DNA of 63,461 bases, taken from NCBI RefSeq assembly GCF_002211445.1, contig NZ_LSTO01000004.1, forward strand, positions 1-63,461, read 5' to 3'. A program made the translations under genes and the position numbers. Below, piece after piece: positions 5,887-44,023 of this stretch (within the stretch, counting starts at the first letter, position 1; every line of letters starts with the position of its first letter). The notes below the pieces were generated by a model that worked only from the letters and a program-made list of their open reading frames with translations, ran no database searches and was not told where the DNA came from. This DNA comes from Noviherbaspirillum denitrificans. Its GTDB lineage: Bacteria > Pseudomonadota > Gammaproteobacteria > Burkholderiales > Burkholderiaceae_D.

Positions 5887-5963
5887 TGGTAGGCTCGATT
5901 GGACTCGAACCAACGACCCCTACCATGTCAAGGTAGTGCTCTAACCAGCTGAGCTACGAGCCT
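5887..5963 (-). tRNA. tRNA-Val (anticodon GAC)
   Basis: A complete cloverleaf of 77 bases including an encoded CCA. Acceptor AGGCTCG pairs with CGAGCCT; D-arm GCTC...GAGC; anticodon stem CTACC/GGTAG with loop TTGACAT, so the anticodon is GAC (valine, GUC/GUU codons); T-arm GTTGG-TTCGAAT-CCAAT. Discriminator base is A. It stands alone with its own terminator, and no integrase or att-like duplication is seen next to it. Confidence 0.97.
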
Positions 5964-32436: not shown

Positions 32437-32521
32437 TGGTGCCGACGGCGAGACTCGAACTCGCACAGCTTTCGCCACTACCCCCTCAAGATAGCGTGTC
32501 TACCAATTTCACCACGTCGGC
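32437..32521 (-). tRNA. tRNA-Leu (anticodon GAG)
   Basis: 85 bases including encoded CCA. Acceptor GCCGACG/CGTCGGC; anticodon stem CTATC/GGTAG with loop TTGAGGG, giving GAG (reads CUC/CUU); a long variable arm typical of leucine tRNAs (GTGGCGAAAGCTGTG) and T-arm GCGAG-TTCGAGT-CTCGC. Located between secG and nuoA, a common Burkholderiales arrangement. Confidence 0.97.
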
Positions 32522-37967: not shown

Positions 37968-40091
37968 TTACTGCTGCTGTTGTTGCTGCTGAACGGCAGC
38001 ACCTTCTTCAGCAGCAGCGGCCTTCATCGACAGCTTGAGACGGCCGCGGTCGTCGGTCTCGAGAACCTTGACGCGAACTTGCTGGCCTTCCTTCAGGTAG
38101 TCGGCGACGGCGTTCACACGCTCGTTGGCGATCTGGCTGATGTGCAGCAGGCCATCCTTGCCCGGCATGACCTGGACGATCGCGCCGAAGTCGAGCAGCT
38201 TGAGGACGGTACCGTCGTAGGTCTTGCCCACTTCGACCGATGCGGTCAGCTCTTCGATGCGACGCTTGGCTTCCTGGCCGGCGGCAGCGTCAACCGAAGC
38301 GATGGTGACGATACCTTCGTCGGTGATGTCGATCTGGGTACCAGTCTCTTCGGTCAGGGCGCGAATCACTGCGCCACCCTTGCCAATCACGTCACGGATC
38401 TTTTCCGGGTTGATGCGGATCGTGATCAGGCGCGGAGCGAAGCTGGACAGCTCGCCCTTGCCTACCGGCATAGCTTCCTGCATCTTCGCCAGGATGTGCA
38501 TGCGACCTTCCTTGGCTTGCGCCAGCGCAACCTGCATGATTTCCTTGGTGATGCCCTGGATCTTGATGTCCATCTGCAGTGCCGTCACGCCAACGGCGGT
38601 ACCAGCCACCTTGAAGTCCATGTCGCCGAGGTGATCTTCGTCACCCAGGATATCGGTGAGGACGGCAAACTTGTTGCCATCCTTGATCAAGCCCATTGCG
38701 ATGCCGGCGACGTGCGCCTTCATGGGGACGCCTGCATCCATCAGTGCCAGGCAGCCGCCGCAGACCGAAGCCATGGACGACGAGCCGTTGGACTCGGTGA
38801 TTTCGGACACGAGGCGGACGGAATAGCTGAACTCTTCCGGTGCCGGCAACGCCGCTTGCAGTGCGCGCTTGGCGAGGCGGCCGTGGCCGATTTCGCGGCG
38901 CTTCGGCGAGCCGACACGGCCGGTTTCGCCGGTCGCAAACGGTGGCATGTTGTAGTGGAGCATGAAGCGGTCCGAGTACTCGCCCATGAGCGCGTCGATC
39001 TTTTGCTCATCGCGCGCGGTGCCGAGAGTCGCGATGACCAGCGCCTGGGTTTCGCCACGGGTAAACAACGCCGAGCCGTGCGTACGCGGAAGTACGCTGT
39101 TGCGGATGGAAATCGGACGCACGGTGCGGGTGTCGCGGCCGTCGATACGCGGTTCGCCTTCGAGGATCTGCGAACGCACGATTTTCGCTTCGAGGTCGAA
39201 CAGGATGTTCCCGACATCAACCGCATCAGCAGCTTCCGCGTCTGCGGCGAGCGCAGCATTCACTTCGGCTGACACAGTCTTCAGCTTGGCGGTACGGGCC
39301 TGCTTGTCCTTGGTCTGATACGCTTCGCGCAGCTTGCCTTCGGCCAGCTCGGTTACGCGAGCGATCAGCGCTTCGTTCTTCGGGGCGGGTGCCCATTCGA
39401 CTTCCGGCTTGCCGCCGTCGCGAACGAGTTCGTGGATCGCATCGATCACGACCTTCATCTGCTCGTGACCGTAGACCACAGCACCCAGCATGACTTCTTC
39501 GGAGAGCTGTTGTGCTTCGGACTCGACCATCAGCACGGCTTGCTCGGTACCGGCGACAACCAGGTCCAGCTGCGAGGTTGCCATTTGCGTAGTGGTCGGG
39601 TTCAGCACGTACTGGCCGTCGACGTAGCCGACGCGCGCAGCGCCCAGCGGACCGCTGAAGGGGATGCCAGCGACACAGATCGCTGCAGAGGCGCCGATCA
39701 TCGAAGCGATATCGGGATCGATTTCCGGATTGACGGACAGGACGTGAATGATGACCTGCACTTCATTCATGTAGCCTTCGGGGAAGAGCGGACGAATCGG
39801 ACGATCGATCAGGCGGGAAGTCAGCGTCTCCTTCTCGGACGGACGGCCTTCGCGCTTGAAGAAACCACCGGGAATGCGTCCGGCTGCGTAGCTCTTCTCG
39901 ACGTAATCAACCGTCAGCGGGAAGAAATCCTGGCCCGGCTTGACATCCTTCTTGGCGACGACGGTAGCCAGTACAACGGTATCTTCGATCGAGACGACCA
40001 CTGCACCGGATGCCTGGCGAGCGATCTCGCCGGTTTCCAGTGTGACGGTATGCTGGCCATACTGGAAGGTCTTGGTAACTTTATTGAACAC
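37968..40091 (-). CDS. pnp: Polyribonucleotide nucleotidyltransferase (PNPase)
   Basis: 3-prime to 5-prime phosphorolytic exoribonuclease of the RNA degradosome. 707 residues from a GTG start at 40091 with AAAGGA upstream. Two RNase PH-like domains (about 1-220 and 310-545), KH domain about 550-615 ([19 protein letters not shown]) and S1 domain about 620-690. The protein ends with a glutamine run of seven ([12 protein letters not shown]), a low-complexity tail that varies among relatives. Downstream of rpsO, the classical rpsO-pnp pair. Confidence 0.98.
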
Positions 40092-41310: not shown

Positions 41311-42849
41311 TCAGAGCTGCGGATTGAGCTTGTCGACCTTGGAGTGCAGCTTGTTCAGCGCGGAGAGGTAAGCCTTTGCCGAGGCAACCACGATATCGGG
41401 ATCTGCGCCGACACCGTTGACGATACGGCCGGCCTTCGACAGACGCATCGTCACTTCACCCTGGGACTGCGTGCCGGTGGTGATCGCATTGACAGAGAAC
41501 AGCAGCAGTTCGGAGCCGCTCTTGGCTTCCGACTCGATGGCATTTACCGTGGCGTCGACCGGGCCATTGCCCTGCCCTTCGCAAGCCAGCTCCTTGCCCC
41601 CCATGGTGAACACCACTTTCGCCGTCGGACGCTCGCCGGTTTCGGAGTGCTGGCGCAGCGACACGAAACGGTAGTGTTCGTTGTCGTGCGAGTGCTGTTC
41701 ATCGGCCACCAGCGCGATGATGTCCTCGTCGAAAATTTCCGCCTTGCGGTCGGCAAGTTCCTTGAATCGGGCAAATGCGGCATTCACTTCCGTCTCGGAT
41801 TCGAGTTCGATGCCAAGCTCTTCCAGGCGCTGCTTGAACGCGTTGCGGCCGGAGAGTTTGCCGAGCACGATCTTGTTTGCGGTCCAGCCCACATCTTCCG
41901 CACGCATGATTTCATAGGTATCGCGCGCCTTGAGGACGCCATCCTGGTGGATACCGGACGCATGGGCGAAGGCATTGGCGCCGACCACGGCCTTGTTCGG
42001 CTGCACTGCGAAGCCGGTGATCTGCGAGACGAGCTTCGATGCCGGGACGATCTGGGTCGTGTCGATGCCGACGTCGAGCCTGAAGTAATCCTTGCGCGTC
42101 TTCACTGCCATCACGACTTCTTCGAGCGAGGTATTGCCGGCACGTTCGCCAAGTCCATTGATGGTGCATTCGATCTGGCGCGCGCCGCCGATCATGATGC
42201 CTGCAAGGGAGTTCGCCACCGCCATGCCGAGGTCGTTGTGGCAGTGCACGGACCAGACCGCCTTGTCGGAATTCGGGATGCGCTCGCGCAGGGTTTTGAG
42301 CATGTTGCCGTACAACTCGGGCACACCGTAACCGACGGTGTCGGCGAAGTTGATGGTGGTCGCGCCCTCATTGATCACAGTCTCAAGGACGCGGCAGAGG
42401 AAGTCGATGTCGGAACGGCTGCCGTCTTCCGGGCTGAACTCGACATCGTCGGTGAAGTTGCGTGCGAAGCGCACTGCCTGCTTCGCCTGTTCGAGCACCT
42501 GCTCGGGCGACATGCGCAGCTTCTTCTCCATATGGAGCGGCGAGGTCGCGATGAAGGTATGGATACGCTTGCGTGCTGCCGGCGCCAAGGCTTCCGCAGC
42601 GCGCGCAATATCGCGGTCGTTTGCACGGGAGAGCGAGCAGACGGTCGATTCCTTGATGATCCCAGCGATCGCCTTGATCGATTCGAAGTCGCCCGGGGAG
42701 GCAGCGGCAAAACCGGCTTCGATCACGTCCACGCGCAGGCGCTCCAGCTGCTTCGCAATGCGGATTTTTTCATCCTTGGTCATCGAAGCGCCGGGCGATT
42801 GTTCGCCGTCACGCAAGGTTGTGTCGAAAATGATCAGTTTGTCGGCCAT
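41311..42849 (-). CDS. leuA: 2-isopropylmalate synthase
   Basis: Condenses acetyl-CoA with 2-oxoisovalerate, the first step of leucine synthesis. 512 residues from ATG 42849 with AAGGAGAG upstream; an ATG at 42924 in the same frame would add 25 unconserved residues. HMGL-like TIM barrel with [10 protein letters not shown] (11-20) and metal-binding HCHNDLG; the C-terminal LeuA regulatory domain (about 390-512) that mediates leucine feedback inhibition is complete. A separate promoter and a leucine-rich leader frame lie upstream. Confidence 0.97.
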
Positions 42850-42961
42850 GCTGCTCTCCTTGAGGAAAATACGGAAATCGGTTGCTGCCGAATGGTCCTT
42901 CGCCTGCCCTTGCCTGATCGGCATGAGCGAGGGACTACTCGAATTGTGGGGGTATGGGATT

Positions 42962-42981
42962 TAGCGCGCGTTAACGCACTA
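42962..42981 (-). promoter_or_regulatory. Hairpin over the stop codon of the leuA leader frame
   Basis: On the minus strand TAGTGCGT pairs with GCGCGCTA (two G-U pairs), with loop TAAC containing the UAA stop. The two CTA leucine codons end at the base of the stem. There is no U-run after it, so it is not a classical terminator. Confidence 0.4.
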
Positions 42982-43054
42982 GTAGCGACAGCAGCAGACC
43001 TGCCAGCAGGTTGCTGAAGAAAGCGGATGCGGAAATGTGGATTTCGCGGGACAT
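42971..43054 (-). CDS. Candidate leucine-rich leader peptide of leuA (27 codons)
   Basis: A short frame from ATG 43054 to TAA 42971. It begins MSREIHISASAFF and ends LLAGLLLSLLVR: seven leucines in the last twelve residues, coded CTG CTG, CTG CTG CTG and CTA CTA. This is the composition of attenuator leader peptides of leu operons. The ATG falls seven bases after a strong -10 box, so the predicted mRNA would start at or next to AUG, i.e. be leaderless. An in-frame ATG at 43078 lies inside the promoter and is less likely. About 120 bases separate it from leuA. I see no downstream U-rich terminator, so the mechanism, if any, is not simple attenuation. Confidence 0.5.
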   Translation of the reverse strand: MSREIHISASAFFSNLLAGLLLSLLVR

Positions 43055-43061
43055 GCCGAAA

Positions 43062-43090
43062 ACTATAAGCGTAATCATGGAAAAGTGCAA
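43062..43090 (-). promoter_or_regulatory. Predicted sigma70 promoter of leuA
   Basis: TTGCAC (43090-43085), exactly 17 bases, TATAGT (43067-43062) on the minus strand. It lies just after the pssA terminator, which fits an independent leuA transcript. Confidence 0.65.
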
Positions 43091-43096
43091 CAGGCT

Positions 43097-43138
43097 ATCG
43101 AAAAGGCGGCAATTCGGCATGTTTGCCGCCTTTTCGAT
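43097..43138 (-). terminator. Terminator after pssA
   Basis: Perfect 16-bp stem (ATCGAAAAGGCGGCAA with its complement) around a 10-base loop, beginning right after the pssA stop. On the minus strand the stem ends in TTGCCGCCTTTTCGAT. One of the strongest hairpins in the window. Confidence 0.85.
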
Positions 43139-43144
43139 CGTGCG

Positions 43145-44023
43145 TCAGTCTTTGCCGTCGTGGTGTTCGACTTCCGAAGTCTGCACGATGCTGACCGGTT
43201 TTCCCTTGGCAAGGCGCCAGAAAAAGATCGCGTAGCCAGACAATCCATACAGAACGAACATGCCGAACAGCACTTTCGGCGGATCGCTTGATACCAGCAC
43301 GAAGATAAGCACGATCACGAAGATTGCGATGAAGGGCACCGACTTCTTGAAGTTGATTTCCTTAAAGCTGTAGAACGGCACGTTCGTGACCATCGTGAGG
43401 CCGGCATACAGGGTGATGGCCCATGCGTACCAGCTCAGGTTCTGCCCCTCGAAACCAAGATCATGCATCAGCCAGATGAATCCCGTGACCAGCGCGGCGG
43501 CAGCCGGGCTAGGCAAGCCCTGGAAGTAGCGCTTGTCGACGACGCCAATGTTGGTATTGAAGCGGGCCAGGCGTAGAGCCGCACCCGCGCAATACACAAA
43601 GGCCGCAAGCCAGCCGAGCTTGCCGAGGCCGCGGAGCGACCATTCATAGACGACCAGTGCCGGCGCCGCGCCAAAGGACAGCATGTCGGACAGGCTGTCG
43701 TATTGCGCGCCGAATTCGCTCTGCGTGTTGGTCAGGCGAGCAACACGTCCGTCGACGCTGTCGAGCAGCATCGCAGCAAAGATGGCGACTGCTGCATAGT
43801 CGTATTTCAGGTTCATTGCCATCACGATGGCGAAAAAACCGGCGAACAGGTTCGCGGTGGTGAATGCGTTCGGCAGCAGGTAAATCCCCCGACGGCGCAG
43901 GGTTGGCGCGCTCGGCGCCTCGTCAATTGCTGTCGGCGCGTGGTGGGCTATGCGTTTATTCCAGCGCGCCTTGAGGGGCGCACCGGGGTTTGATTTTGAT
44001 TTGCGGCGATTGAAGGTTGCCAT
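43145..44023 (-). CDS. pssA: CDP-diacylglycerol--serine O-phosphatidyltransferase
   Basis: Membrane enzyme making phosphatidylserine, precursor of phosphatidylethanolamine; the CDP-alcohol phosphatidyltransferase type. 292 residues, about seven helices. The signature DG-AR-G-D-D is complete (Asp91, Gly92, Ala95, Arg96, Gly105, Asp109, Asp113). The first 45 residues are a basic, disordered N-terminal extension (RRKSKSNPGAPLKARWNKR). Lies in the ilv-pssA-leuA block common in Betaproteobacteria. Confidence 0.95.
   Translation of the reverse strand: MATFNRRKSKSNPGAPLKARWNKRIAHHAPTAIDEAPSAPTLRRRGIYLLPNAFTTANLFAGFFAIVMAMNLKYDYAAVAIFAAMLLDSVDGRVARLTNTQSEFGAQYDSLSDMLSFGAAPALVVYEWSLRGLGKLGWLAAFVYCAGAALRLARFNTNIGVVDKRYFQGLPSPAAAALVTGFIWLMHDLGFEGQNLSWYAWAITLYAGLTMVTNVPFYSFKEINFKKSVPFIAIFVIVLIFVLVSSDPPKVLFGMFVLYGLSGYAIFFWRLAKGKPVSIVQTSEVEHHDGKD

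Follow-up and report, generated by a model that had tools for sequence, protein, structure and literature searches.

A predicted leaderless leucine leader upstream of leuA in Noviherbaspirillum and its relatives

Is the short, leucine-rich reading frame between pssA and leuA of Noviherbaspirillum denitrificans part of a leucine-sensing attenuator, and, if so, how would it act on leuA? In enterobacteria, leuA is preceded by leuL, a Leu-rich leader with rare CUA codons and ribosome stalling. We considered the question in a window, i.e., the whole stretch of DNA that was analysed (63,461 nucleotides, contig NZ_LSTO01000004.1), and in the leuA upstream regions of related genomes. A previous sequence-only reading of the window had proposed a leaderless leader peptide at this locus, with control of leuA either at the level of translation or by Rho. 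The frame is a real and conserved leucine leader, predicted to be leaderless. Judging from sequence comparisons, it very probably forms the sensing half of a leucine attenuator, leaderless and ribosome-stalling; both of the previously suggested outputs remain live.

The leader frame and its promoter

The locus contains the following features, all of them on the minus strand:

43085..43090, minus strand: −35 element TTGCAC, identified by direct reading and by conservation in the genus
43062..43067, minus strand: −10 element TATAGT, separated from the leader ATG by 7 nt
42971..43054, minus strand: leader frame MSREIHISASAFFSNLLAGLLLSLLVR, 27 codons plus TAA, predicted leaderless
42980..43009, minus strand: leucine run CTG CTG GCA GGT CTG CTG CTG TCG CTA CTA
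41311..42849, minus strand: leuA, 2-isopropylmalate synthase, 512 aa

Re-reading the sequence directly confirmed a Leu-rich frame of 27 codons that opens seven bases (TTTCGGC) after the −10 element, with the CTA CTA pair near its end. It starts with the ATG at 43054 and stops with the TAA at 42973–42971; seven of its last twelve codons are Leu, and the final codons are CTA CTA GTG CGT TAA. The promoter elements (43090–43085 and 43067–43062) are separated by a spacer of 17 bases. Their description as near-consensus is justified for TATAGT (5/6 positions) but not for TTGCAC, which matches TTGACA in 3/6 positions. A promoter scan set at 9/12 did not list this promoter, and it is accepted here because it is conserved. 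The distance of about 120 bases to leuA, formerly ascribed to the promoter, in fact belongs to the leader stop, which is 121 nt from the leuA ATG (42849); the two ATG codons are 205 nt apart. On the upstream side, the pssA frame stops at 43145, and a strong hairpin, AAAAGGCGGCAA...TTGCCGCCTTTT, lies between this stop and the leader promoter, both being identified by eye.

The downstream gene was named from its protein sequence, following the sequence-only reading, and is presumably leuA. An in-frame ATG at 42924, inside the hairpin P2 described below, would lengthen leuA by 25 residues (537 aa ORF); it is probably unused, because close relatives align from MADKL. Elsewhere in the window, a minus-strand ORF at 37968–40091, which by eye resembles pnp (polynucleotide phosphorylase), has seven Gln codons at its end, and no leader was seen by eye before ilvB. 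In the whole window, only two tRNA genes on the minus strand (5890–5963 and 32440–32521, Rfam tRNA model) scored above the gathering score of Rfam (release 15), and none of the matches was at leuA. A search of the region 42600–43300 at E up to 5 gave three matches, all far under their gathering scores, and 18 relatives had no Rfam match.

Orthologues of leuA with at least 89% identity were found in 14 of 15 Noviherbaspirillum genomes, the remaining one (G011) having a distant match only; the 14 loci, including the window's own, are hereafter referred to as the genus. The promoter is present in all 14 loci, with TTGCAC or TTGCGC as the −35 element. The ATG invariably follows the −10 element at 6–7 nt, which leaves no space for a ribosome-binding site. 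Each locus has a Leu-rich frame of 24–32 codons, and the 3′ block CTAGTGCG is always in frame with the ATG (for one locus, L094, the frame script picked a shifted hexamer). The frame, the −10-to-ATG spacing, the Leu run, and the stop-codon hairpin are kept across the genus. In most genus loci, codons 2–10 (43025–43051) read SREIHISAS or FREIHISAS, an amino-acid conservation that is unusual for a leader peptide; perhaps the nascent chain has an effect of its own, or the start-proximal sequence signals leaderless initiation.

The codon choice in the Leu run is also distinctive. Of the 1498 Leu codons in 30 window ORFs chosen solely for being long, 1.6% are CTA, and leuA itself has none, as against 38 of the 101 Leu codons in the genus leaders. 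Hence, the genus leaders combine a short Leu-rich frame directly upstream of a leu gene with the enrichment of a rare Leu codon, two traits of leucine attenuators. In other groups of leaders, defined below, the CTA share is 50% in the Comamonadaceae type (98 Leu codons), 48% in the Burkholderia type (67), and 70% in Cupriavidus (10), but no more than 7.6% in the RPAR type, ending ..LLLRPAR (250); the background share is that of the window ORFs.

Distribution in Burkholderiales and other orders

The sequence-only reading had proposed to look for conservation of the frame and its Leu codons in relatives, and this comparison did not refute it: the frame, the Leu run, and the −10-to-ATG spacing are kept both in the genus and beyond it. 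Upstream regions of leuA were scored by a strict test that required a TAnnnT hexamer with at least 4/6 matches to TATAAT, located 5–8 nt before an ATG, GTG, or TTG, and a frame of 9–60 codons with at least three Leu in some eight codons, at most 440 nt from leuA. The 163 regions comprised the best 80 of 582 named loci, the 14 genus loci, and 69 loci from a draw of the order. In the latter, 120 genomes were evenly drawn, and leuA was found at the cut-off in 103; 29 loci were fetched by search and 40 by rank, two were skipped, and 33 of the 103 leuA loci, mostly the lowest-ranking ones, are outside the count. Among the 163 regions are the window (L082) and a genome that is represented twice (L002 = L094); L038 (141 nt) and L139 (31 nt), both shortened by contig ends, were scored as misses.

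The test was passed by 101 of the 163 regions, leaving 62 misses. Dinucleotide shuffles of the same regions gave 6.7 passes on average (2–12; 20 rounds), reverse complements gave 1/163, and control windows elsewhere in the same loci gave 18/551. The test is specific to the residue: the number of passes (n=163) was 101 for Leu, 28 for Ala, 26 for Ser, 13 for Arg, and fewer for others. When 130 Leu-rich ATG frames in the 163 regions were selected without regard to promoter, 58 of 79 frame-hexamer pairs had a distance of 6 or 7 from a good −10 element to the ATG. At least five of the 62 misses are near-misses, with fewer Leu (L021) or a spacing of 9 nt (L127, L130, L149, L154). No leader was seen in others of the misses, such as loci from Janthinobacterium, Massilia, Duganella, and Collimonas, and several genera seem to be devoid of it. 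Four loci without a Leu leader, namely, three from Collimonas and one from G021 (L003, L004, L005, L112), have a GC-rich stretch followed by a T-run about 80–110 nt before leuA. It may be the terminator of the upstream gene, as the upstream frame looks LysM-like by eye.

In a draw of the class, such leuA genes were found in 45 of 75 genomes (window included), and the best 29 of the 44 further loci were tested. Of these loci from other orders, 17 passed, compared with 1.9 on average for shuffles (0–5; 30 rounds) and two for reverse complements; two of the 17, L186 and L196, resemble frames that arose by chance within an upstream gene, and L195 and L198 are doubtful. By eye, CCTGGCGAGG recurs in the gap between the leader and leuA in L181, L199, L203, and L204, as well as in L186, which is without a convincing leader. 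Behind it comes a stretch similar to AAACGC, and the two may represent another conserved RNA element of orders other than that of the window.

RNA structures between the leader and leuA

The 101 passing leaders were grouped by their last residues. The earlier statement that no U-run terminator is present holds for the window's genus, where an intrinsic terminator was called in none of the 14 loci and the layout is not that of a classical attenuator, but it does not extend to all relatives: a strong hairpin followed by a U-run, i.e., an intrinsic terminator, is found in 22/22 leaders of the Comamonadaceae type (hairpin z −4.33). Elsewhere, terminators were called in 4/35 leaders of the RPAR type (five-pair stems), 1/9 of the Burkholderia type (P1 itself, see below), and 3/13 of the group "other", plus L044; the script missed the hairpins of Cupriavidus (L042, L051, L074), which are visible in the sequences.

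In the Comamonadaceae type, most leaders carry, close to their end, an ACGGGC that is complementary to the 5′ arm of the terminator, GGCCCGT. Both partners have changed together in Cupriavidus (GGTCGGG with CGCCCCGGCC) and, again, in L119 and L121 (GCTTGGGGC with AGCCCCAGC). The antiterminator complementarity is no more than moderately better than that of shuffled codons (median 0.185, 28 leaders), and the case for an antiterminator rests more on its joint change with the terminator between clades than on this score. By their sequences, the Comamonadaceae-type, Cupriavidus, and L119/L121 leaders have the predicted anatomy of a classical attenuator.

The region behind the leader in the window has a different set of predicted features:

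42962..42981, minus strand: hairpin P1, UAGUGCGU-UAAC-GCGCGCUA, with the stop codon in the loop and the last Leu codon in the 5′ arm
42944..42961, minus strand: C-rich, G-poor tract AATCCCATACCCCCACAA, predicted single-stranded, candidate Rho loading site
42890..42940, minus strand: hairpin P2 with no U-run behind it (window alone, z −2.12, 8/200 shuffles as good)
42844..42860, minus strand: Shine-Dalgarno and start-codon region of leuA, AGGAGAGCAGCATGGCC, predicted to pair with leader bases 43000–42984

P1 is the small hairpin in whose loop the stop codon had been noticed, and folding upholds that observation: in the window, its 8 bp have an energy of −10.6 kcal/mol (z −2.58, 2/200 shuffles as good). 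The genus form, UAGUGCG...CGCGCUA, whose loop holds the stop codon, is predicted in 14/14 loci (mean z −2.45), and part of its 3′ arm falls outside the frame. A P1 hairpin at the frame end is characteristic of the leaders that lack a terminator; its mean z is −1.49 in the RPAR type. The Burkholderia-type P1, GCGCG...CGCGC, does not stand out from shuffles of sequence this rich in GC (mean z −0.66), and Comamonadaceae-type leaders have no such P1 (z +0.72). Outside the order, CUGCC...GGCAG surrounds the stop codon in 9 of 15 folded leaders, i.e., the 17 class-level passes minus L186 and L196. There is no covariation of P1 in Oxalobacteraceae, because the hairpin is nearly invariant there; the argument for P1 is that its sequence changes between clades.

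The Oxalobacteraceae set, defined by last residues, took in L044 and L074. The structural alignments excluded these two as well as the duplicate L094 and were extended by L006, L009, L010, and L014, with L029 joining for P2 and the covariation counts. In the resulting 22 rows, from which the P2 structure had itself been derived, the paired share is 0.85, compared with 0.40–0.45 in slid versions, and double changes number 16 vs. 5–14 (in the genus, 5 vs. 3–7). Of 500 shuffles, none reached the observed paired share or double changes in the 22 rows, and 8 and 25, respectively, did so in the genus alone. As the slid versions nearly match the count of double changes, the covariation is only moderate. 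An antiterminator-like pairing with P2 was not above base shuffles in 19 Oxalobacteraceae and near loci (medians 0.41 and 0.24), nor was pairing of the C-rich tract with the leuA start region (median 0.56); for the C-rich tract with P2, the median against shuffles was 0.29.

The Leu run itself has a candidate partner. When the window leader is folded to minimum energy, bases 43000–42984 pair with 42860–42844; taken as a whole, the leader folds better than shuffles to a moderate degree only (z −1.56, 11/200). In the 14 genus loci, the duplex of the Leu tract and the leuA start has a mean energy of −22.8 kcal/mol (median rank 0.02), vs. −15.8 when the start regions are taken from other clades and −16.5 when they are shuffled. 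The median rank is 0.11 in four Undibacterium-like loci, and there is no excess in the RPAR, Burkholderia, and Comamonadaceae types (0.65, 0.96, and 0.57, respectively); against base shuffles of the leader, the pairing is weaker (median 0.14, 19 loci). At the start of leuA, 13/14 genus loci retain the motif CAGCATGGCC, and in the exception, L087, the pairing is absent though the leader keeps its Leu run. Masking of the Leu run makes the leuA start region more open by >0.05 in 9/14 genus loci and less open in one. A masking ribosome at the stop codon opens the region about equally, and hence stalling at Leu and at the stop codon are not separated. The genus loci share ancestry, the pairing shows no independent covariation, and it may be a single coincidence; in the window's genus it is suggestive rather than proven.

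Proposed control of leuA and comparison with known systems

In the proposed sensing half, the transcript would begin at or beside the A of the leader ATG, and with such a start the leader would be translated as a leaderless mRNA. The ribosome would traverse the Leu run, enriched in rare CTA. Given ample charged tRNA-Leu, it would reach the stop codon and depart, so that P1 would form and the Leu run would be free. At leucine shortage, it would stall on the Leu run, hold P1 open, and keep the run out of other structures, leading to expression of leuA. As to the output in the window's species, the most likely reading, which nevertheless falls just short of being probable, is that the free Leu run would pair with the Shine-Dalgarno box and start codon of leuA and block translation. 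This model has the right sign, as leuA would be closed when leucine is plentiful and open when it is short.

The next most likely output, which we consider rather unlikely, is Rho-dependent premature termination before leuA, with the same leaderless Leu leader as the sensor. Once the ribosome departs, Rho would load on the C-rich tract behind the stop codon and halt RNA polymerase. Consistent with this, the first 20 nt past the stop are C-rich and G-poor in the 35 RPAR-type leaders (C 0.48, G 0.08) and in the Oxalobacteraceae set (n=20; C 0.44, G 0.16), CCCCACAATTCG within the tract is conserved, and the tract is predicted to be unpaired (0.49–0.98 in 21 loci); in these models it has the C-rich, G-poor, unpaired character of the leader tracts of Rho attenuators. 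Moreover, sister clades terminate transcription at the same place. However, the terminator-bearing Comamonadaceae type, too, is rich in C at this place (C 0.42, G 0.20), and the search for an antiterminator-like partner of P2 gave nothing above shuffles. Nor does this reading by itself account for relief at starvation, as a ribosome stalled on the Leu run would leave the tract bare.

Two further readings deny the frame its role as a sensor or make this role secondary. Translation for the sake of the peptide itself, as a small hydrophobic protein, with regulation of leuA a secondary matter, is improbable. Codons 2–10 do appear to be under purifying selection in the genus, with a nonsynonymous/synonymous ratio per site of 0.355, obtained from pairwise one-change codon counts that are mutually non-independent. 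Yet, from clade to clade, the peptides have little in common except the Leu run and some terminal residues, their length varies from 16 to 53 residues among the 101 passing leaders, the window peptide has no match in Pfam and NCBIfam, and the choice of CTA is that of a sensor. Least plausible is a chance frame in a conserved untranslated leader RNA whose structure alone matters: P1 and P2 are indeed conserved, and part of the P1 3′ arm lies outside the frame in the genus, but length changes preserve the frame in all 14 genus loci, Leu and CTA are enriched, and the ATG is at a fixed distance from the −10 element.

Combined with the preferred output, pairing of the Leu run with the leuA start, these observations allow a tentative picture, possible rather than probable. 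One old leaderless Leu leader would be spread across Burkholderiales and other orders, its sensing half kept and its output swapped between clades, from a terminator to a stop-codon hairpin with a C-rich tract acting via translation or Rho, and in the window's genus the Leu codons would lock the ribosome-binding site and start codon of leuA. A widespread leaderless sensor with at least two output stages would be a comparative system for how attenuators change their output. It also bears on the coupling between RNA polymerase and ribosomes that translate leaderless mRNAs and on whether a stop-codon hairpin can switch without a U-run, and it draws attention to a small reading frame without a match in the protein family collections searched.

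Attenuators have been the subject of older comparative studies, for example that of Vitreschak in 2004, and in the mycobacterial polycysteine ORFs of Canestrari's 2020 study a stalled ribosome reportedly frees a sequestered ribosome-binding site. A leucine-control RNA element for leuA in betaproteobacteria was not found in Rfam or in the literature searched, which was mostly without subscription papers, and the same literature yielded no leaderless Leu leader in proteobacteria. The terms "leuA" and "leader peptide" are absent from the main text of two papers on betaproteobacterial transcript starts (PMC4603805, PMC7563307).

Mycobacterial leaderless polycysteine short ORFs control downstream genes (PMC9031893) and, like the window's leader, are leaderless short frames with a run of a single residue, but they are cysteine sensors and actinobacterial. 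The RNA of peTrpL from Sinorhizobium meliloti, an attenuator leader peptide, starts with the ATG (PMC7298713); it differs in being a Trp sensor with an attenuator terminator, and alphaproteobacterial. LeuL of Campylobacter jejuni and other Epsilonproteobacteria, with 20–35 aa and rare Leu codons near the C-terminus, precedes leu genes (PMC3847290); unlike the window's leader, it was found through its ribosome-binding site and is not leaderless. Leucine attenuators before leuA are already known in other Gammaproteobacteria, since leuA of Shewanella has one, with a leader peptide, a terminator, and an antiterminator (PMC2659441; the word "leaderless" is absent from that paper). The window's leader resembles those of Shewanella and enterics in being Leu-rich, in preceding leuA, and in the proposed stalling on Leu codons. 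The Comamonadaceae-type relatives match the Shewanella and enteric design, with terminator and antiterminator, whereas the window lacks both.

Two actinobacterial cases combine other parts of the same picture. LeuL1 upstream of leuA in Streptomyces lividans is leaderless and has no typical Rho-independent terminator (PMC8079986), and in the LEU element the Leu run has been proposed to pair with the Shine-Dalgarno box of leuA (PMC1262725). Both come from another phylum, and their peptides and inner structures are dissimilar to the window's by eye; in addition, the LEU element has a proposed pseudoknot inside a base stem. The pairing considered here is enriched in no group but the window's genus. 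The window shares with both cases a short frame rich in Leu codons ahead of leuA and with LeuL1 the lack of a typical terminator, leaderlessness here being predicted; with the LEU element it would share the pairing of the Leu run with the Shine-Dalgarno box of leuA, which for the window is a prediction.
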